Part shown: one piece after another, positions 51,790-64,000 of the stretch
Layout of the letters: each line of letters starts with the position of its first letter
Position numbering within the stretch: the first letter of the stretch is position 1
DNA from: Chryseobacterium limigenitum
GTDB taxonomy: Bacteria; Bacteroidota; Bacteroidia; Flavobacteriales; Weeksellaceae
Direction of reading: 5' to 3'
NCBI RefSeq assembly: GCF_900114875.1
Contig: NZ_FPKW01000003.1
Span: 186,001-250,000 of the forward strand
Length of the DNA stretch: 64,000 bases
Notes under the pieces: model-generated
Seen by the model: the letters and a program-made list of their open reading frames with translations, nothing else
Told to the model about the DNA's origin: nothing
Databases searched by the model: none
Made by a program: the position numbers and the translations under genes

Positions 51790-52455
51790 CTATTTAGAAT
51801 ATTCATAATCAACAAATAAATTATTTTCCACATGTTGTATTCCCGGAGTTTTCCAAGCGATACGGCAGGCTTCCTCTTTTTGATGCCAGGAATTTACTGT
51901 CCCTGTTAAAGTCACTGTGGTGCCGGATACTTTGATATGGATATCACTGTCGTATACCACCCAGTTCATTTTCATTGCATTTTCAACATCTTTTTGCTTA
52001 ATCGCATCATGGATTTCTGATTTGATTTTAATATTATTGATGATGGCTTTCACTCCAGGAAGATAATGTATGGCATTTTTTGTCATTTCTCTCTGATAGT
52101 CCCACTGCATTTCTCCCTCTAAGGTTACCTGTCCGTCCTCAACAATCACTTTGATCATATTTTCAGGGATCAATGCATTTGATTTAAAAGCTTTTACAAT
52201 TTCATCGGCAACTTCAATATCGGTTTTTGATGTGGAGTTTGGAAATTTTACTTTAATATTTTCTACTAATACTTTTACCCCAATTACTTTTTTTGCAGCG
52301 TTTTCCGCCTCAACTTTTTTTGCATAGCTGTCAACGATTCCTGTAAGAGAAACTATACCATCCTTTGCAGTAACTCCAATTTCTGCAGCGTGTAACAGAG
52401 GTTCCCATGCAATGGCATCCTGAACATTTTTTTGTAGTTCGGCATTTGTTTTCAT
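51790..52455 (-). CDS. Triple BON-domain protein, copy 1
   Basis: 221 residues from the ATG at 52455; an ATG two codons earlier exists, but the paralogue at 58607 begins MKTNEELQ, matching this start. Three BON domains in tandem (about 5-70, 78-145, 150-219), each with a VxLxGxVxxxxxxxxA pattern: DGIVSLTGIVDSYAKK, DGQVTLEGEMQWDYQR, GTTVTLTGTVNSWHQK. There is no signal peptide, so unlike OsmY it should be cytoplasmic. Its promoter carries two TGAT-N4-ATCA boxes. Confidence 0.92.
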   Translation of the reverse strand: MKTNAELQKNVQDAIAWEPLLHAAEIGVTAKDGIVSLTGIVDSYAKKVEAENAAKKVIGVKVLVENIKVKFPNSTSKTDIEVADEIVKAFKSNALIPENMIKVIVEDGQVTLEGEMQWDYQREMTKNAIHYLPGVKAIINNIKIKSEIHDAIKQKDVENAMKMNWVVYDSDIHIKVSGTTVTLTGTVNSWHQKEEACRIAWKTPGIQHVENNLFVDYEYSK

Positions 52456-52473
52456 ACTCATTTATTTGTTATC

Positions 52474-52538
52474 CAAAATTCCAGAAACTTTGTAGAATAT
52501 ACTATGATATGCATCACGGCGAAACCTGATCCTGATCA
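52474..52538 (-). promoter_or_regulatory. Tandem FNR-like boxes and -7 box of BON copy 1
   Basis: Boxes TGATATGCATCA (52505-52516) and TGATCCTGATCA (52527-52538, within the perfect palindrome CCTGATC-CT-GATCAGG) are exactly 22 bp apart. On the minus strand GAATTTTG (complement of 52474-52481) starts 23 nt after the proximal box. The region lies between divergent genes, so the boxes could also affect the P-type ATPase gene, where a weaker TACATTCG (52566-52573) is the only candidate -7 box. Confidence 0.65.
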
Positions 52539-55227: not shown

Positions 55228-56286
55228 TTATTTTTTCTCTTTTTTAGCTTCTTTTTTCTTTTTATTAAAATATCCTCTTAACAGAAAATTATTCTTAGCG
55301 GCGGCTTCTATCTCTTTCAGGTCTACGGCTCCTTTTTCTATATTAATGATTGTTGAATCCACAGATCTTCCAAGTTTAGGATTGTTAATGAGCTTAGATA
55401 AAACATTCTCGTCATTATTTATTTTTGATGTAAATTTTATAAAATCATCAGAGCTTTTTTCAAGATTGCGGACTGTTTTATCTAGTGACATTGCCAGCGT
55501 ATCGTTGGAAGATAATTGGGAGAGTATATTATTCTTATCATTGAGTTTTGAAGTGAAAAGAGTTATCTCACCGGTGCTTTTCTGTAGGTTAGAAATACTT
55601 TTTTCTATATTATCCGCCCATTTAGTATCGGTAAATATTTTTGCGGCAGTTCCGTTTTTATCATTCATTTTCGATGTAAATTGTGCCAGTTCTTTGGAAC
55701 TCATTTGCAGATTTTCTACTGTCTTGTCTATTCTGGCAGCAAAATCCTTATTGGTCATTATTTTTGTCAGCAGGCTATTCTTATTATTCATTTTTGCACT
55801 GAACTCAACAAGCTGATCGGTAATTGCTTTTGTATTATCAGCACTTTTTTTTACACTCGAAAAAATGTCATCTATTTCGATTGTTTTATAAGAGACAATC
55901 ATATCATTATCCTTCACTGTGGTAGTAGAAGCCATACCCGGAGAGATAATAAGAACTTTATCACCCATTAATCCGTCCGAGGCTATACTGGCAACAGCAT
56001 CGGTTTTTATATATTTCTGAACATCCTCTTTAATTAATAACTTGACCAGAACCAATGAATCTGAGACAAAATCTATTTTACTGACTGTTCCGATATTAAT
56101 ACCGGATAGACGTACGGTACTGCCTTGCTTCAGCCCGCTTACATTTTTAAATTCTGAACGCAACACGAAATTAGAACCAAATAAGTTTCTGTTGACACCA
56201 ATAAAATAGATGGCAGTTATAAAAAGAAGAATGCCTGCTGTGACAAAAACTCCCAATTTCCAGTTGTTTGATGATTCATTACTCAT
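55228..56286 (-). CDS. MlaD/MCE-family lipid transport protein with 41-residue repeats
   Basis: 352 residues. One membrane helix (about 10-29), one MCE domain (about 38-133, EFKNVSGLKQGSTVRLSGIN), then four tandem repeats of exactly 41 residues anchored on FSAKMNNKN (162), FTSKMNDKN (203), FTSKLNDKN (244) and FTSKINNDEN (285). A Lys-rich tail (KKKKEAKKEKK) ends the protein. It is the substrate-binding subunit of the Mla-type ABC system encoded directly upstream (mlaE, mlaF). The repeats probably form an extended helical stalk across the periplasm (inference). Confidence 0.92.
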   Translation of the reverse strand: MSNESSNNWKLGVFVTAGILLFITAIYFIGVNRNLFGSNFVLRSEFKNVSGLKQGSTVRLSGINIGTVSKIDFVSDSLVLVKLLIKEDVQKYIKTDAVASIASDGLMGDKVLIISPGMASTTTVKDNDMIVSYKTIEIDDIFSSVKKSADNTKAITDQLVEFSAKMNNKNSLLTKIMTNKDFAARIDKTVENLQMSSKELAQFTSKMNDKNGTAAKIFTDTKWADNIEKSISNLQKSTGEITLFTSKLNDKNNILSQLSSNDTLAMSLDKTVRNLEKSSDDFIKFTSKINNDENVLSKLINNPKLGRSVDSTIINIEKGAVDLKEIEAAAKNNFLLRGYFNKKKKEAKKEKK

Positions 56287-56297
56287 GGCTGTTTTGT

Positions 56298-57077
56298 TTA
56301 TTTTTTAAAAAAAGATTTTACCCAATTATCGGTGTTGTTTTCTATGTCATTATAACTGCCTTCAGCTTTAATGATGCCATCTTTCAGGACTATGATCCTG
56401 TCACTGGTGTACTTTGCACAGATCAGATCGTGGGTTATGATAATAGAGGCTGTATTGTATTTAATTTTAATATTTCGGATAAGATCAATTATCTCACGAG
56501 CTGTAATAGGATCTAATCCTCCTGTCGGCTCATCATAAATGATAATTTCCGGTTTAATGATTAATGCTCTAGCCAGCCCTATTCTTTTTCTCATTCCGCC
56601 GGAAAGTTCTGCCGGCAATTGATCAATGGCTTCTTCCAGTCCTACGTTTTGCAATGCTTCTATAACTGCAGATTCCATTTCCTGATCCGTGAGATTCTTT
56701 TTATTATGCTGTAATGTAAAAATTAAATTTTCTCTGACTGTCATGGAGTCATATAAAGCTCCGTTTTGAAATAGAAAGCCAATCTTCATCCGTATCCGGT
56801 TAAGCTCATCTTCACTAAGTTTTGTGATATCTTTTCCCTTGATGATTATTTCTCCTTTGTCAACCTTAGTGAGTCCGACGAGGCATTTCACAGCGACAGA
56901 CTTACCTGAACCTGATCTTCCTAATATGATAAGATTTTCTCCTTTGTCAATGGTAAAGCTTATGCCGTTCAAAACCTTGTTGCTTCCATAAGATTTATAA
57001 ACATTTTTAAACTCTATTAATGGGGCAACAGCTGCCGGATGGCCATTTCGGATTGTAAAGTTTTCAGTAATTTTCAT
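56298..57077 (-). CDS. Mla-type ABC transporter ATP-binding protein
   Basis: 259-residue ABC ATPase. Walker A ILGRSGSGKSVAVKC, Q-loop GFLFQNGALYDSMTV, signature LSGGMRKRIGLARAL, Walker B IIIYDEPTGGLDP, H-loop ITHD. The GALFD-like segment after the Q-loop is typical of MlaF/Ttg2A. Its ATG shares one base with the mlaE stop (TAATG). It energises lipid movement between membranes with the MlaE permease and MlaD. Confidence 0.94.
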   Translation of the reverse strand: MKITENFTIRNGHPAAVAPLIEFKNVYKSYGSNKVLNGISFTIDKGENLIILGRSGSGKSVAVKCLVGLTKVDKGEIIIKGKDITKLSEDELNRIRMKIGFLFQNGALYDSMTVRENLIFTLQHNKKNLTDQEMESAVIEALQNVGLEEAIDQLPAELSGGMRKRIGLARALIIKPEIIIYDEPTGGLDPITAREIIDLIRNIKIKYNTASIIITHDLICAKYTSDRIIVLKDGIIKAEGSYNDIENNTDNWVKSFFKK

Positions 57078-57841
57078 TATAGTTCAAAAAATAGATCGGT
57101 TACCTGTACTGCTATCAAATCAATGATAAATATCATAAGTGAGGCTAAAACAACGGCTGAATTTGCTGCTGTTCCTACACTTTTTGTCCCGCCTGAAGCA
57201 TTAAATCCTTCATAGCATCCGATAATCCCGATAAAGAAACCGAAGAAAAAGGTTTTTATAATAGCCGGAAATATGTCTACATATTCCAGAGATTCAAAAA
57301 CATGAGAAAGATAATGCTCTAAATTACTTTCGCTGTGCATATTGAGTCCAATGAAACCGCCTATTATTCCGATCAGATCAGTGTAAATTACCAAGAGAGG
57401 GATCATTAATGTTGTAGCCAGGGTTCTGCTTACCACGAGATAGCGATAGGGATTGATAGCAGATACTTCCATGGCATCAATTTGTTCGGTGACTTTCATA
57501 GAACCCAATTCTGCTCCAATACCTGATGAGACTCTTCCTGCACAGATCAATGCTGTAATTACAGGGGCGATTTCTCTTATTAAAGACAAAGAAACCATGC
57601 TTGGTATTAAGGACTCGGCTCCAAATCTTGCCATCGTAGGGCGTGATTGAATGGTGAGTACAAGTCCCATAATAAAGCCTGTTATCGTTACCAGCGGTAA
57701 TGACTGGTAGCCAACAATAAAGCATTGTCGTATAAACTCTTTAAACTCGAACCCCGGTTTAAAAATTTCTTTAAAAAAACGGATTGAGAATGAAGTTATA
57801 CTACCTGCCAGAGTAAGTTTTTTATTAAAATAGCTTTCCAC
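57077..57841 (-). CDS. MlaE-type ABC transporter permease
   Basis: 254 residues, five or six membrane helices. The family core runs QSLPLVTITGFIMGLVLTIQ, LIREIAPVITALICAGRVSS, GAELGSMKVTEQIDAMEVSA, the conserved coupling region that contacts the ATPase. First of three overlapping or closely spaced Mla genes on the minus strand. It lies 103 bp after BON copy 2 and may be read from the same promoter at 59.5 kb. Confidence 0.94.
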   Translation of the reverse strand: MESYFNKKLTLAGSITSFSIRFFKEIFKPGFEFKEFIRQCFIVGYQSLPLVTITGFIMGLVLTIQSRPTMARFGAESLIPSMVSLSLIREIAPVITALICAGRVSSGIGAELGSMKVTEQIDAMEVSAINPYRYLVVSRTLATTLMIPLLVIYTDLIGIIGGFIGLNMHSESNLEHYLSHVFESLEYVDIFPAIIKTFFFGFFIGIIGCYEGFNASGGTKSVGTAANSAVVLASLMIFIIDLIAVQVTDLFFEL

Positions 57842-57944: not shown

Positions 57945-58607
57945 TTATAGATTGTACTCATAATCTACTTTTAATTCATTTTTGACTCGCTGTATGCCCG
58001 GTGTTTTCCAGACAATACGTTCTGCTTCTTCTCTTTGTTGCCAGGTGTGTACTGTCCCGGTTAATGTCACTGTTGTTCCTGATACTGATACATTAATATC
58101 ACTATCATCAATTGCGCTTCTTTTAAGTGCTTTTTTAATATCACTTTTTTCAACGGTGTTTTGGATTTCGGGATTGATGATGATATTATTATAAATACCC
58201 TTAACTCCCGGAAGATATCTTACGGCATTTTCTGTAATCTCACTTAAATAGTTCCAGGCTACTTCACCATCCAGATCCACCCATCCTCTTTCTACTTTTG
58301 CAGTTACTTTTTCTTCTGGAATAAAGGAGTTTGATTTGAATGCGGCAATAATCTCTTTGCCTATTTCAAGATCAGTTTTTACCCGTGGATCGGGTAATTT
58401 TACTTCGATATTCTCTATCAGTACTCTTACTCCCAAAACATTTTTTGCGGTATGTTCAGCCTGTATTTTTTTTGCGTAATTGTCAACAGTACCCGTTAAT
58501 GAAACAATCCCGTCTTTTACAATAACTCCAATTTCTGCTGATTGCAATAGAGGCTCCCATTGAATGGCGTCCTGAACATCTTTTTGTAATTCTTCATTTG
58601 TTTTCAT
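57945..58607 (-). CDS. Triple BON-domain protein, copy 2
   Basis: 220 residues, paralogue of the 52455 gene over its whole length (MKTNEELQKDVQDAIQWEPL; EAERIVWKTPGIQRVKNELK). It has three BON domains and no signal peptide, so a cytoplasmic role is likely. The middle BON domain is the most diverged between the copies (GWVDLDGEVAWNYLSE here). The gene lies between the glycosidase-like remnant and mlaE. Confidence 0.92.
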   Translation of the reverse strand: MKTNEELQKDVQDAIQWEPLLQSAEIGVIVKDGIVSLTGTVDNYAKKIQAEHTAKNVLGVRVLIENIEVKLPDPRVKTDLEIGKEIIAAFKSNSFIPEEKVTAKVERGWVDLDGEVAWNYLSEITENAVRYLPGVKGIYNNIIINPEIQNTVEKSDIKKALKRSAIDDSDINVSVSGTTVTLTGTVHTWQQREEAERIVWKTPGIQRVKNELKVDYEYNL

Positions 58608-58788: not shown

Positions 58789-59418
58789 TTATTTTTCAAT
58801 AAATCCCTCCTGTTGCATTTTATTACGGAGAGTGCGGGCAATTTCGTTCGTTAGTCTTTTTACTCCCTTCGGATCATATGTTTCTGTAATTCCTGACCAT
58901 ATTATTTTATCATCCTGAATAGAATAGATAATAGTTTCAATAATGAATTTTTTGGTGATGGTATAATTGCCGGGAATATTGTAATACATCCAGTTTCTGT
59001 AATAGTAGGTAATGAAGTCCTCATAATACATTGGATACATGTAATATTGCTGGGGAGTATACACCTTTTCTTTATCCACATCTATCAAACGCATAGTGAC
59101 GGCAGCATCAAAGCTGTCTTTCTTTATTTTATTCCTGAGAGCCTGTTCGTCTTTCCTGTTAAAATTTTCATCCAGATAACTGTAAGAGGTAATACCCTTT
59201 CCATGGAGGTATTTTACCATTTCATCTTCGGCGCTTCGGCGATTGGTTTCGTTTCTCAATAAGGCTACTACTAATACTTTTTTCCAATCTGAAGCATGAA
59301 TTTGTTTCGCAGGATCTCTCCAGCTGCTGACTATGCTGGTTGAACTGCAGGAATTTGCAAATACTGTTAAAGAAAATACAGTAAAAAGGATAAGCTTATG
59401 ATATTGTAATTTTTTCAT
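58789..59418 (-). CDS. Lipoprotein of unknown function
   Basis: 209 residues. The lipobox FANSC puts the lipidated cysteine at 24. The mature part starts SSTSIVSSWRDPAKQ, then VLVVALLRNETNRRSAEDEM, a Tyr-rich segment (PQQYYMYPMYYEDFITYYYR) and IIYSIQDDKIIWSGITET with a C-terminal helical end. The order resembles DUF4136-type lipoproteins, which I cannot confirm. It is the first gene read from the tandem FNR-like boxes at 59504-59537 and probably leads the BON-Mla group. Confidence 0.75.
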   Translation of the reverse strand: MKKLQYHKLILFTVFSLTVFANSCSSTSIVSSWRDPAKQIHASDWKKVLVVALLRNETNRRSAEDEMVKYLHGKGITSYSYLDENFNRKDEQALRNKIKKDSFDAAVTMRLIDVDKEKVYTPQQYYMYPMYYEDFITYYYRNWMYYNIPGNYTITKKFIIETIIYSIQDDKIIWSGITETYDPKGVKRLTNEIARTLRNKMQQEGFIEK

Positions 59419-59472
59419 GTTATTATTTCTTTATTAGATTGTTAGCTTAATCATGATAGAAATTAAGCTATC

Positions 59473-59537
59473 CAAAGGTCTTGAAACCATAGTGGAAATT
59501 AAATGATGCCTGTCACGGTTAAAATTGATGTTAGTCA
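59473..59537 (-). promoter_or_regulatory. Tandem FNR-like boxes and -7 box of the lipoprotein-BON-Mla direction
   Basis: TGATGCCTGTCA (59504-59515) and TGATGTTAGTCA (59526-59537) are 22 bp apart, the same spacing as at BON copy 1. On the minus strand GACCTTTG (complement of 59473-59480) starts 23 nt after the proximal box. The lipoprotein start is 54 nt beyond. Confidence 0.65.
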
Positions 59538-59609
59538 GATTAAAGTGTTGGAAATCTGTTGTTCTTTTTGAAATAGAAGCTGTATTTAGCTGCATATCAT
59601 TTTTTTACG

Positions 59610-59652
59610 TGATGGCAGTCATTATCTAAGCAGGTTATAATTTAGAAATTTG
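59610..59652 (+). promoter_or_regulatory. FNR-like box and -7 box of the L,D-transpeptidase-Usp operon
   Basis: TGATGGCAGTCA (59610-59621) is followed after 23 nt by GAAATTTG (59645-59652); the start codon at 59671 is 18 nt further. The box lies 84 bp from the second minus-strand box, about eight DNA turns, so three sites share one divergent spacer. Confidence 0.65.
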
Positions 59653-59670
59653 CTACATAATTTATAGATT

Positions 59671-61041
59671 ATGAAAACTCTTTTGAACTTCACAATTATT
59701 CTTTGCAGTGTTATTATTGCACAGGCTCAGGACTTGAAGATAACCAATCAGATCGCTTCCTCGCTTAAAGACACTGTTATTCTTTCGAAACTGCATTATC
59801 CAAAATCGGTCATGCGGTTTTATGCCAAGAATAATTCTGAATATGCCTGGATACATGGCGTACAGAAGCTGGATCAGCCAGAACTAGCGATGCTTCTGCT
59901 GGAATATTCTTATCGATTTGGATTGCCTTTATCTGATTATCATTTGGAGACTCTTTCGTTAGAGAAATTAAGAAAATTAAGAAATATTTCTGCTGAAGCA
60001 GATCAAAAAGAAAAGGCTCTGTTTGATGTTTTAATGACTGATGCCCTGATTACCTTCATCAATAATCTTCATTTTGGAAAATATAATCCGTTGTATAATT
60101 CATTAAATATTGATACTAATGCTATTCATGAATTTCGTGCAGATGACATACTGCTGGATGCAAGACAACAGACAGATTTTCTTAAAGCACTTGAGGTTCA
60201 GCCTAAGATTAAAGCTTATACAGACTTTCAGGATTATTTAAATGTTTTTTATACAGAAAATGATTGTATGGATTCTCATCCTGAAATAGAAAAAATCATG
60301 ATCAATATGGAACGTTTGAGATGGATTGATAATGAAAGTAAACCTTATATTTTGATCAATATACCGTCTTATACACTTGAATTATATCAGAAAGATGCCG
60401 TATTTGATTTCAAAGTGATTGTGGGAAAACCAACTACCAGAACTCCGGTTCTGGAAAGCAGGATCAATTATTTTACAACAGCTCCTGACTGGAAAGTTCC
60501 TCAAAGTATTTTCGTAAAAGAGATGCTTCCAAAGATCTTAAAAAGCAGTCAGTATTTGGAAGACCATCATTATGCAGTTTATGACAGACATGGCAATGAA
60601 GTTGAAATAAGCTCGTCGAAGCTTAAAGAGATCCGTCAAAATCCCTATCATTACAGTGTACGACAATCTTCGGGCTGTGACAATGCATTAGGAGCTGTCG
60701 TTTTTCGTTTTCCAAATTCTTATGGAGTATATCTTCATGACACCTCTCAAAAACAATTGTTTAATCAAAGCGAGAGAGCCTTAAGTCACGGTTGCATCCG
60801 CGTAGAAAAGCCTAAGGAACTTGCGTCACTGTTATTAAGATATGATGGAGCAGAAAGTGATATCCCTGTTTTTGAAAATGCAATGGCTGAATATAAGAGA
60901 AAAGATTTTGTTTTAAAGCAACCGGTTCCTGTCGTCATTACGTATCTGACTTGCTTAATAAAAGATGGAAAACCGGTATTATATAAAGATATCTACCATT
61001 TTGATGATTCGCTCGAAAATAAATTTAACCTAAATAAATAA
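59671..61041 (+). CDS. L,D-transpeptidase (YkuD family), exported
   Basis: 456 residues. Signal peptide (IIAQAQ end). A helical N-terminal region (about 30-205) of the YcbB-type scaffold precedes the catalytic YkuD domain, where YILINIPSYTLELYQKDAVF opens the domain and ALSHGCIRVEKPKELAS gives the active-site Cys in HGCIR. These enzymes make 3-3 peptidoglycan cross-links or attach proteins to peptidoglycan. A Usp gene follows 7 bp downstream under the same FNR-like promoter. Confidence 0.93.
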   Translation: MKTLLNFTIILCSVIIAQAQDLKITNQIASSLKDTVILSKLHYPKSVMRFYAKNNSEYAWIHGVQKLDQPELAMLLLEYSYRFGLPLSDYHLETLSLEKLRKLRNISAEADQKEKALFDVLMTDALITFINNLHFGKYNPLYNSLNIDTNAIHEFRADDILLDARQQTDFLKALEVQPKIKAYTDFQDYLNVFYTENDCMDSHPEIEKIMINMERLRWIDNESKPYILINIPSYTLELYQKDAVFDFKVIVGKPTTRTPVLESRINYFTTAPDWKVPQSIFVKEMLPKILKSSQYLEDHHYAVYDRHGNEVEISSSKLKEIRQNPYHYSVRQSSGCDNALGAVVFRFPNSYGVYLHDTSQKQLFNQSERALSHGCIRVEKPKELASLLLRYDGAESDIPVFENAMAEYKRKDFVLKQPVPVVITYLTCLIKDGKPVLYKDIYHFDDSLENKFNLNK

Positions 61042-61048
61042 TTAAACG

Positions 61049-61924
61049 ATGAGAACAATTCTAGTACCCACTGATTTTTCAAAGCCATCTAAAAATGCAG
61101 CATATTATGCTTTGCATATGGCTCAAGCTCTGAAAGCCAATATTGATTTGTGCTATGCTTTTAACCTACCCACCGAAAGCCCGATGTTAGGACAGGTTTC
61201 ATGGGCTTTATATGATTATCCGGCCTTACAGGAAGAAAACAGTAAAGAATTAAGAAAGCTGGTAAAAACATTAGAAGAAAAAGGAAATACTATATGGGGT
61301 GTTAATGCTTTTCCTTTTCATCCGTCAATATATTATACGTGTGAGGCTGGGGATGTTGTACAGGTAATTAATAATACAGCAATAAATAATAAAACGCTGC
61401 TTGTTGTAATGGGTATGACCGGAGCCGGAAAACTTTCCCGTTTTTTCTTTGGAAGCAATAGCCTTAAAATGATTAACAATACGCAGCACCCTCTTCTTTT
61501 AGTACCACAAAATCATAAATATAAAAAATTAGAGAAAATTGCTTTTGCCACAGATCTGAGTAAAAAAGATATAAAAATAGCACAGGCATTGGTGAAATTT
61601 GCTAAATACTTTGATGCTGAACTTTTAATTACCCACATTATTCAGAGTACAAATGATGTTATGGAAGATACGGCATACGAGCATAAAAAAAAAGTGTTTT
61701 TAAAGGCTCTGGACGGTAAAGTCTGCTATAACTGTATTTACAGCGAAAATATAGATTATGGTTTAGATATACTGAAAAATAAAGATATTGATATATTGGT
61801 AATGGGGCATGACCACAGGAGTTTTCTCGAAAAATTTACCAAGAGCAGCCATGCTGCAACACAAGCTGCTGAGTTAGAAATTCCACTATTAATCATTCCG
61901 GAAATTGATCAGCTGTTTTTTTAA
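61049..61924 (+). CDS. Universal stress protein with two Usp domains
   Basis: 291 residues. The first Usp domain (about 1-152) starts RTILVPTDFSKPSKNAAYYA and has the nucleotide-binding GMTGAGKLSRFFFGSNSLKM, which fits G-x2-G-x9-G-S. The second (about 160-291) starts KIAFATDLSKKDIKIAQALV, and its ATP loop (VMGHDHRSFLEKFTKSS) is degenerate. The first half probably binds nucleotide and the second does not. Linked with the L,D-transpeptidase gene; a terminator follows. Confidence 0.93.
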   Translation: MRTILVPTDFSKPSKNAAYYALHMAQALKANIDLCYAFNLPTESPMLGQVSWALYDYPALQEENSKELRKLVKTLEEKGNTIWGVNAFPFHPSIYYTCEAGDVVQVINNTAINNKTLLVVMGMTGAGKLSRFFFGSNSLKMINNTQHPLLLVPQNHKYKKLEKIAFATDLSKKDIKIAQALVKFAKYFDAELLITHIIQSTNDVMEDTAYEHKKKVFLKALDGKVCYNCIYSENIDYGLDILKNKDIDILVMGHDHRSFLEKFTKSSHAATQAAELEIPLLIIPEIDQLFF

Positions 61925-61931
61925 GTTAAAG

Positions 61932-61970
61932 AATTCCTCAGGCTCTGTCTTGGGGAATTTTATTTTATAT
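61932..61970 (+). terminator. Terminator after the Usp gene
   Basis: Stem AATTCCTCA / TGGGGAATT (61932-61940 and 61951-61959, one G-U pair), 10-nt loop, followed by TTATTTTAT. The tail is interrupted, so efficiency may be moderate. Confidence 0.7.
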
Positions 61971-62100: not shown

Positions 62101-63297
62101 ATGGAAAGTGCTAAACTTTTGTATGCTATTATAGAAACAGCAATTGATGGTATTGTTACCATTGATAACAGAGGGAGAATAGAAAGTATGAATCCCTCTG
62201 CGCTAAAAATATTTGGGTATAAAGAAGTGGAGCTCATAGGAAAAAATATTTCAGTTTTGATGCCGGAACCCGATAAAAGTCAGCATGATGGTTATTTGCT
62301 TAATTATCAAAATACCGGCGAAAAAAAAATAATAGGCAAAGGAAGAGAAGTACAGGGATTAAGGAAGGATGGATCAAAATTTCCTTTCAGGCTTGCTGTA
62401 AGCGAAGTACAATATCAGGACAGAGTAATTTACACAGGTTTTATCCATGATCTTTCCAAAGAAAAAGAAGCTGAAGAATCCCTTAAAAATTATGCCGGTG
62501 AGCTGGAAGAATTGGTCGAAAGCAGGACGAAATCCCTAAAAAAAATGCTTCATGAATTGGAAAAAGCAAAAGAAGAAGCTAGTATAGCCCTGGAAAAAGA
62601 AAAACAACTGAATCGGATGAAAAGCCGTTTCGTATCAATGGCGTCACATGAATTTCGTACCCCCTTAAGTTCCATGCAGCTTTCTGCGGTACTTATTGAA
62701 AAATATCTTCAAGCTTCCGATAATATCCAAATATTAAAACATCTTCATAAGATAAAAAATGCAATTGCCAGCCTGAATTCTATTCTCAATGATTTTCTTT
62801 CCTTAGAAAAGCTGGAAGCAGGTGTGATATCGCCCAATTATGATGTATTTGATGTCATTAAGTTTTCTGAAGAGCTTACGGAAGAGATGCAGCTTATAAC
62901 AAAAGTAGACCAAATAATTATTTATCAGCATACGGGATCAGAAAGTGAAATACATCTGGATCAAAATTTATTAAGGAATTGTTTAATAAACCTGATGAGT
63001 AATGCTATAAAATATTCGGGAGAGCATACGTTGATTGAATTTTCTTCAGAAATAAATAAAGAAGAATATATTTTCACCATAAAAGATAATGGGATAGGAA
63101 TACCCCAGGAAGATCATTCTGCTCTTTTTCAGCCCTTTTTTAGAGCGCATAATACAGGTAATATTCCGGGAACCGGCTTGGGACTCAATATTGTACGTCG
63201 ATATGTAAGCCTAATGAACGGGCAGGTTCATTTTGAGAGTACATCTGAAATTGGAACTAAATTTACATTATCATTTAAAAAAAATGATGCCCTTTAA
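62101..63297 (+). CDS. PAS histidine kinase with FixL-like haem-binding PAS domain
   Basis: 398 residues, no membrane segment, so a cytoplasmic sensor. One PAS domain (about 1-120), a coiled coil (about 122-175), HisKA with FVSMASHEFRTPL (phospho-acceptor His183) and a HATPase domain (NLMSNAIKYS, DNGIGIP, GTGLGLNIVRRY). The PAS has QHDGYLLNY followed by KKIIGKGREVQGLRKDG. Aligned by eye with rhizobial FixL, His62 matches the proximal haem ligand (His200 in Bradyrhizobium) and Arg82 the oxygen-contacting Arg220, which suggests an O2 sensor. The FixL residue numbers are from memory. Its likely partner is the receiver-Crp gene 17 bp downstream. Confidence 0.92.
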   Translation: MESAKLLYAIIETAIDGIVTIDNRGRIESMNPSALKIFGYKEVELIGKNISVLMPEPDKSQHDGYLLNYQNTGEKKIIGKGREVQGLRKDGSKFPFRLAVSEVQYQDRVIYTGFIHDLSKEKEAEESLKNYAGELEELVESRTKSLKKMLHELEKAKEEASIALEKEKQLNRMKSRFVSMASHEFRTPLSSMQLSAVLIEKYLQASDNIQILKHLHKIKNAIASLNSILNDFLSLEKLEAGVISPNYDVFDVIKFSEELTEEMQLITKVDQIIIYQHTGSESEIHLDQNLLRNCLINLMSNAIKYSGEHTLIEFSSEINKEEYIFTIKDNGIGIPQEDHSALFQPFFRAHNTGNIPGTGLGLNIVRRYVSLMNGQVHFESTSEIGTKFTLSFKKNDAL

Positions 63298-63314: not shown

Positions 63315-64000
63315 ATGGAAAAAATAAGTATACTGATTATTGAGGATAATGCCGATATCCGTGAAAGCACTTCGGAAATTCTTGAGCTTGCCGATTATGA
63401 AGTGTTTCAGGCTTCTAATGGTAAACAAGGTGTAGATCTGGCCATTAAACATACACCGGATGTCATACTCTGCGACATTATGATGCCGGAACTTGACGGA
63501 TACGGAGTCCTGTATCTTTTAAGCAAAAGAGAAGATACCGCATTGATCCCTTTTATCTTTATTACCGCAAAAGCAGATAGAATTGAGGTACGGAAGGGGA
63601 TAGAAATGGGCGCTGATGATTATCTCACTAAGCCTTTTGACGATATTGAGCTTTTGAGTGCGATTGAAAGTCGCTTGAAAAAGAAAGAGCGCCAGAAAAG
63701 GCTTTATAGCTCGAATCTTACTCAAATGAGCAATTTGTTTCAGGCTTCAAATGGGCTTGATGAATTAAAAAAAGCTTTCGACGAGCGAAAAATAAAGTCT
63801 TTTAAAAAGAAGCAAATTATATATTACGAAGGTGATACAGCAAACGCGGTTTATCTCATTATTTCGGGCGCTGTAAAAACCACAAAAATGACAGAAGAAG
63901 GGAAAGAGCTTATGACAGGGGTGCATAGCCCGGAAGATTATTTTGGGATTACCTCAGTATTTACCGGAAAGGAATACAAAGAGACTGCTGAGGTATTGGA
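63315..64000 (+). CDS. Response regulator receiver fused to Crp/Fnr domain, 3' truncated by window end
   Basis: Starts at 63315 and runs open to the last base, giving 228 residues. The receiver domain (about 1-120) has LIIEDNADIRE (Asp10/11-type acidic pair), CDIMMPELDGYG with phospho-acceptor Asp54, FITAKADR and the conserved Lys in LTKPF. A cyclic-nucleotide-binding-like roll follows (about 145 onward: YYEGDTANAVYLIISGAVKT, EEGKELMTGVHSPEDYFG). The HTH would lie beyond the window. It combines FixJ-like and FixK-like parts in one protein. Its kinase partner is 17 bp upstream. Confidence 0.9.
   Translation, partial: MEKISILIIEDNADIRESTSEILELADYEVFQASNGKQGVDLAIKHTPDVILCDIMMPELDGYGVLYLLSKREDTALIPFIFITAKADRIEVRKGIEMGADDYLTKPFDDIELLSAIESRLKKKERQKRLYSSNLTQMSNLFQASNGLDELKKAFDERKIKSFKKKQIIYYEGDTANAVYLIISGAVKTTKMTEEGKELMTGVHSPEDYFGITSVFTGKEYKETAEVL

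Follow-up and report, generated by a model that had tools for sequence, protein, structure and literature searches.

In the FixL-FixJ-FixK cascade of rhizobia, which has a counterpart in Burkholderia, the receiver-LuxR protein FixJ activates transcription of a separate CRP-type regulator, FixK. FixL kinases contain a heme-binding PAS domain with a His and, 20 residues on, an Arg. The FNR consensus is TTGATN4ATCAA, and at class II promoters the activator site is centred near -41.5. Low-oxygen regulation in the Bacteroidota is, to our knowledge, poorly charted.

Universal stress (Usp), heat-shock and BON proteins are described as low-oxygen proteins of the Burkholderia lxa locus and the Mycobacterium tuberculosis DosR regulon in passages of PMC6127331, where a CRP/FixK-type regulator is suggested for Burkholderia. 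For Flavobacterium psychrophilum, the main text of PMC9723704 places the -7 element TAnnTTTG at -12 to -5 and reports an increase of cbb3 oxidase and heme synthesis under low oxygen; this text mentions neither Crp nor Fnr, and passages of it name no regulator or box for the oxygen-limitation response. Passages of PMC8510549, PMC4618731 and PMC9239204 contained nothing on receiver-CRP fusions. Among titles and abstract openings outside the subscription literature none on a receiver-CRP/FixL system in Bacteroidota was found, a weak sign that such a system is unreported.

The locus analysed here lies in a 64,000-nucleotide stretch of Chryseobacterium limigenitum DNA (the window). Like FixL-FixJ-FixK, it joins a putative FixL-type heme-PAS kinase to a CRP/FNR-type box, and the targets in relatives include the cbb3 oxidase (COX1-FixO), a P-type ATPase resembling FixI/CcoI, and HemA. 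Unlike that cascade, it has one receiver-CRP protein in place of FixJ and FixK, with one transcription step fewer, and a Bacteroidota promoter with tandem boxes. With FNR/ANR class II promoters, as these are generally described, it shares the core TGA(T)-N4-(A)TCA, a centre near -41.5 and an ExxSR helix, and the CRP half of its fusion is closest to FNR-type regulators among CRP-type PDB chains. It differs from them in a flank that is not TTGAT/ATCAA, in a fusion that has no FNR-type cysteine cluster, in the fused receiver, and in a further box placed at a fixed 22-bp register. With lxa and DosR the island shares genes for Usp, heat-shock and BON proteins; the differences are another phylum, an island that also encodes the kinase and the fused regulator, and knowledge that comes here from sequence alone. 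In its working the system would resemble both FixL-FixJ-FixK and an FNR class II promoter, but strictly it belongs to neither.

Tandem-box promoters of the island

Three TGAT-N4-GTCA boxes had been placed by the initial annotation in the 252-bp spacer between the lipoprotein and L,D-transpeptidase genes (Table 1). Their coordinates and spacings (22 and 84 bp, start to start) were exact to the base, as was the 23-nt gap between the nearest box and a GAnnTTTG element on the minus (GACCTTTG) and plus (GAAATTTG) strands. A fourth, half-decayed box had been missed; it lies 22 bp upstream of the third and completes a second pair, and the spacer holds two promoters of the tandem-box design, back to back. 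The design, which is repeated in the island, reads box, 10 nt, box, 23 nt, (G/T)AnnTTTG. Since the boxes are near-palindromes with a mixed base 4 in both half-sites, the facing formerly assigned to each box by its orientation was set aside, and facing is used here for position only. Box pairs in register on both sides support the proposal that the lipoprotein and L,D-transpeptidase groups are controlled together. As for the half-site, which had been called FNR-like, the core TGAYN4RTCA agrees with the FNR consensus and the flank, with mostly T rather than A directly after the box, departs from it.

Widening the box to TGAYN4RTCA showed that the design is present a second time, at 52474-52538, in a divergent spacer that separates a BON gene from a P-type ATPase gene and that the first reading had also passed over. 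Its boxes stand in the 22-bp register, 23 nt from GAATTTTG. Activation of the P-type ATPase gene by the same pair was considered for the host genome and rejected; no -7 element stands at 23 nt, and TACATTCG is found at 27 nt.

The -7 element of the Bacteroidota, TAnnTTTG, occurs here in the variant form GAnnTTTG. When the -7 position given in the main text of PMC9723704 was applied, the box centres fell at -41.5 and -63.5. These values are those of class II activator geometry, and the transcription starts in Table 1 are predictions. The logo of the relatives' promoters was T-rich at -33, with no conserved TTTG and no G. An E. coli-type promoter scan was set aside, that promoter type not being applicable to Bacteroidota.

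Table 1. Features of the island and its promoters (positions in the window)
Feature	Position	Strand	Remarks
BON-domain protein, target	51790..52461	-	Pfam PF04972; orthologous promoters in relatives
-7 element GAATTTTG, BON gene	52474..52481	-	box 23 nt away; predicted transcription start ~52469
Proximal box, BON-gene promoter, TGATGCATATCA on minus	52505..52516	-	
Distal box, BON-gene promoter, TGATCAGGATCA on minus	52527..52538	-	
MlaE-, ABC- and MlaD-like genes	55228..57841	-	same group as lipoprotein
Second BON-domain protein	57945..58607	-	behind lipoprotein gene; without composite of its own
Small lipoprotein-like protein, target	58789..59418	-	no Pfam family at E 0.001
Divergent spacer, lipoprotein gene versus L,D-transpeptidase gene	59419-59670		252 bp
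-7 element GACCTTTG, lipoprotein gene	59473..59480	-	box 23 nt away; predicted transcription start ~59468
Proximal box, lipoprotein promoter, TGACAGGCATCA on minus	59504..59515	-	box 1, TGATGCCTGTCA in plus reading; predicted centre -41.5
Distal box, lipoprotein promoter, TGACTAACATCA on minus	59526..59537	-	box 2, TGATGTTAGTCA in plus reading; predicted centre -63.5; 0 mismatches to composite
Decayed distal box AGCTGCATATCA, L,D-transpeptidase promoter	59588..59599	+	2 mismatches; 22-bp register
Proximal box (box 3) TGATGGCAGTCA, L,D-transpeptidase promoter	59610..59621	+	
-7 element GAAATTTG, L,D-transpeptidase gene	59645..59652	+	box 23 nt away; predicted transcription start ~59657
L,D-transpeptidase (YkuD), target	59671..61041	+	Pfam PF03734
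Universal stress protein	61049..61924	+	Pfam PF00582; 7 nt behind transpeptidase
Terminator-like hairpin	61930..61961	+	between transpeptidase-Usp operon and kinase
FixL-type heme-PAS histidine kinase (heme binding predicted)	62101..63297	+	
Receiver-CRP fusion, presumed activator	63315..64000 in window	+	ends 64367, beyond window; starts 17 nt after kinase

Hsp20, a beta-CASP metallo-hydrolase and ribonucleotide reductase are encoded 3' of the fusion. No composite with up to 3 mismatches precedes the kinase-regulator pair in the host genome. Autoregulation by read-through was rejected on the terminator-like hairpin and the lack of a box before the kinase. Just beyond the window, a 120-aa protein (L016:2447-2809) with no Pfam match has a weak composite (3 mismatches) in front. 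In relatives the proteins encoded at this place group with D-2-hydroxyacid dehydrogenases of 350 aa, and the short protein may be a stand-alone N-terminal piece.

Recurrence in the genome and in relatives

The bare motif TGATN4GTCA was not enriched in the window (3 found against 2.13 expected; 35 of 100 shuffles reached 3), and it is the clustering, not the count, that matters. With 126 matches genome-wide, three in one 252-bp spacer have P ~5e-8, or ~1e-3 over the genome. In the whole 4.7-Mb genome only 3 pairs of TGAYN4RTCA boxes are separated by 0-30 nt; two of these were in the island, both in the 22-bp register.

The composite used for searching was box-10-box-23-KAnnTTTG, with the backward pattern as control and with mechanically called ORFs. 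A scan of upstream regions against background, suggested in the initial annotation, was run in part, with this pattern and with box positions in relatives, and came out in favour of the annotation's reading. At up to 3 mismatches the host genome gave 8 matches versus none in the control; at up to 2 mismatches there were 6, five of them inside the 12-kb island. The eight include the BON, lipoprotein, L,D-transpeptidase (with its half-decayed distal box) and Hsp20 promoters, the last lying beyond the window with 2 mismatches. The remaining ones are found at a small ORF outside the window, at pckA on a different contig, inside an ORF on contig C36 (a weak match), and at the lipoprotein pair read the other way. 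Single boxes followed by KAnnTTTG after 20-26 nt numbered 15 versus 2 in the control, some of them inside ORFs.

Two further observations concern the host genome. Single TGAYN4RTCA boxes also occurred exactly 24 nt before KAnnTTTG (8 matches; spacings other than 23 and 24 average ~1.3). Four of the eight are immediately upstream of a gene (judged by eye as TonB-receptor-like, outer-membrane-like and, twice, YceI-like), and two of these four have other CRP-like genes beside them; at least 3 of the 8 are inside ORFs, and this class perhaps belongs to another CRP/FNR regulator. The pckA composite (2 mismatches; C35:7366-7430) is situated between a CRP gene and pckA, and similar letters were seen in fusion-free genomes of the same genus (G287 and G307).

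Conservation was examined in 80 loci, the best of 528 that encode a protein related to the fusion. They come from Chryseobacterium, Epilithonimonas, Pedobacter, Mucilaginibacter, Flavobacterium, Emticicia, Rufibacter and others, metagenome-assembled genomes included, a few under doubtful names. These loci were picked by the fusion and so provide no test of a link between fusion and boxes, which a survey of family genomes can test. Among these best 80 of 528 loci, boxes had a density of 1.52/kb in intergenic and 0.12/kb in coding sequence, ~13 times denser between ORFs (reversed pattern, 0.045/kb). The distance from box to KAnnTTTG was exactly 23 nt in 68 of 101 cases over the range 5-44 nt, and 55 of 69 box pairs within 60 bp were in the 22-bp register. 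After thinning at 60% identity, 40 sites remained at 23 nt versus 27 over the other 39 spacings together, and 38 pairs at 22 bp versus 1 at each of the 12 other registers found. Composites numbered 147 versus 0 in reversed sequence and were present in 67 of the 80 loci; a gene start could be assigned within -60 to +250 nt for 127 of them, and the other 20 stayed without assignment. The architecture is real and conserved.

Scanning representatives of the targets identified BON, Usp, Hsp20, D-2-hydroxyacid dehydrogenase, cbb3 oxidase (COX1-FixO), heavy-metal P-type ATPase and HemA families, and further c-type cytochromes, hemerythrin, phosphoketolase, YceI, OmpW, DoxX, CBS and RseC. Several targets, the lipoprotein among them, had no Pfam match.

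Sensor, regulator and alternative readings

The PAS domain of the kinase had its best PDB matches in FixL (1d06, E 7.5e-30), and its His62 and Arg82, which we take to be the heme-pocket residues, align with FixL. The kinase core consists of HisKA (PF00512) and HATPase_c (PF02518). Heme binding is predicted, and the protein would be a FixL-type heme-PAS oxygen sensor. No separate FixJ (receiver-LuxR) was found beside the kinase; the neighbour is the single receiver-CRP protein, composed of receiver (PF00072), cNMP_binding (PF00027) and HTH_Crp (PF13545) domains and 88-89% identical to Chryseobacterium records. Receiver residues Asp54, Thr84 and Lys106 were each present in at least 90% of 76 aligned fusions. 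Best among CRP-type PDB chains for the CRP half were FNR-type regulators (9qll, 5cvr), and the recognition helix is ETVSR. The 350-aa fusion has two cysteines only, Cys53 and Cys234, and hence, by the familiar ligand pattern, no FNR-type cluster. The regulator is likely this adjacent receiver-CRP protein, and the oxygen sensor would likely be the FixL-type kinase rather than an Fe-S cluster.

The recognition helix was tried as a pointer to the regulator and rejected, ExxSR occurring in 4 of 12 CRP-like HTHs of the host genome, fusion included. Helix class shifts half-site base 4 weakly, a shift that related loci could give by descent.

Sensor pairing was counted in 75 of the 80 loci, five having no fusion match longer than 280 residues in one ORF. 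A PAS kinase was directly upstream of the fusion on the same strand in 63 of the 75. By alignment, 71 of the 80 loci had a PAS match, with His and Arg at the FixL positions in 51, His and another residue in 17, and Tyr and Lys in 3. The more distant loci mostly have another PAS kinase (~30% identity), and for this reason the oxygen reading is best founded for the Chryseobacterium/Pedobacter/Mucilaginibacter side.

The fusion was present in 11 of 76 genomes of the host's family. Perfect composites occurred in 10 of these 11 versus 0 of the 65 fusion-free genomes (Fisher 1.2e-11, with genomes treated as independent though the species are related), composites with up to 1 mismatch in 10 of 11 versus 2 of 65, and those with up to 2 mismatches in 11 of 11 versus 10 of 65. 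Fourteen of the 18 perfect composites were within 15 kb of the fusion gene. The lipoprotein gene was found in 6 of 11 fusion-bearing versus 1 of 65 other genomes, and the BON gene in 9 of 11 versus 1 of 65. All 6 lipoprotein genes of fusion-bearing genomes had a composite (up to 2 mismatches), as against 0 of 2 distant homologues in one fusion-free genome. Among the BON genes of fusion-bearing genomes other than G277, 13 of 17 had one within 400 nt (at most 1 mismatch); neither the single BON gene of a fusion-free genome nor that of G277 did. Architecture, conservation, targets and co-occurrence with the fusion within the family were all computed directly. Fusion, targets and promoters could also travel together in the family as one island, by hitchhiking.

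Some single genomes and loci stood apart. G277 has kept the fusion and has a kinase PAS with Tyr for the heme His and Arg kept; it has no lipoprotein match and no perfect composite, and no box accompanies its BON gene, which lies at a distance of 13 kb. Its parts may have decayed together, although a single case is an anecdote. Loci L031, L067 and L068 have Tyr and Lys at both heme-pocket positions; in these loci and in G277 a loss of oxygen sensing is possible, judging from the residues. G339 has two receiver-CRP copies, with composites near both, and five BON genes.

Order-wide (395 genomes), the strict pattern occurred in 50 genomes, the fusion in 48 and both in only 18 (compared by eye). 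Among the pattern genomes 32 of 50 had no fusion at E 1e-50, and 30 of the 48 fusion genomes had no pattern; the protein search scored 5 candidates per genome, with misses possible. In L121 and L122, two genomes of another family in which the receiver-CRP search gave no match at E 1e-50, perfect composites precede COX1-FixO and YceI genes; the tandem-box architecture therefore also occurs apart from the fusion. We regard the grid as a CRP/FNR architecture of wider distribution in the Bacteroidota, which goes with the fusion within the host's family. Because the link between fusion and boxes is weaker beyond the family than within it, the oxygen-sensing part of the reading is rated slightly lower.

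A standalone CRP gene ~5 kb from the perfect composites in both of these genomes, and in the host a C35 CRP copy divergent to the pckA composite with its 2 mismatches, would suit a reading in which a standalone CRP/FNR protein (the C16, C35 or C37 copy) reads the boxes and the receiver-CRP protein acts elsewhere. We consider this unlikely. The C16 protein was found in 76 of 76 family genomes, yet no fusion-free one among the 65 has a perfect composite, so that by itself it does not maintain the sites. It is quite improbable that the boxes are repressor sites, or that the proximal one activates and the distal one modulates; activation and repression are not told apart by letters alone, but the -41.5 centre, the lack of a conserved -33 TTTG and the variant -7 element make up, by the general rule, a class II activator layout. 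A chance cluster of a common motif, to which the background frequency of the bare motif in the window would lend itself, is barely credible, as the initial annotation had judged, since dozens of dissimilar promoters show this register, this spacing and these targets.

Proposed circuit and its meaning

The boxes would bind, in tandem, a CRP/FNR-fold activator, for which the receiver-CRP fusion, encoded ~4 kb away, is the likeliest candidate. The observations are probably best explained by a FixL-like kinase that acts through the receiver-CRP protein on tandem class II promoters, which together make up a regulon for survival at low oxygen. The parts of this reading that we infer are binding, phosphotransfer, the role of oxygen as signal, and activation rather than repression. 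At low oxygen the FixL-like heme-PAS kinase would phosphorylate receiver Asp54, and the phosphorylated fusion would bind two boxes, at ~-63.5 and ~-41.5. The proximal dimer, at the place of the -33 element, would recruit Bacteroidota sigma-A polymerase to a poor (G/T)AnnTTTG -7 element in class II fashion. One 252-bp spacer would thereby switch on the lipoprotein-BON-Mla and L,D-transpeptidase-Usp groups together, while the other BON gene would be served by a third promoter of the same kind and Hsp20, outside the window, by one with 2 mismatches. The regulon would comprise BON, Usp, Hsp20 and L,D-transpeptidase, with cbb3 oxidase and HemA in relatives.

On balance we lean towards a phylum-wide, one-step oxygen circuit, in which a FixL-type kinase and a receiver-CRP fusion merging FixJ and FixK would act on a rigid -63.5/-41.5 grid and control a DosR/lxa-like, envelope-remodelling (L,D-transpeptidase, Mla, BON) survival regulon beside cbb3 respiration. 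For low-oxygen regulation in the Bacteroidota the locus offers candidates for the sensor and the regulator, an exact DNA code and a list of targets. It suggests that FixL-FixJ-FixK has a shortened form in a phylum whose promoters are of a type of their own, and its rigid two-site grid is a clean system for asking in what way two CRP-type dimers and the Bacteroidota polymerase act together.
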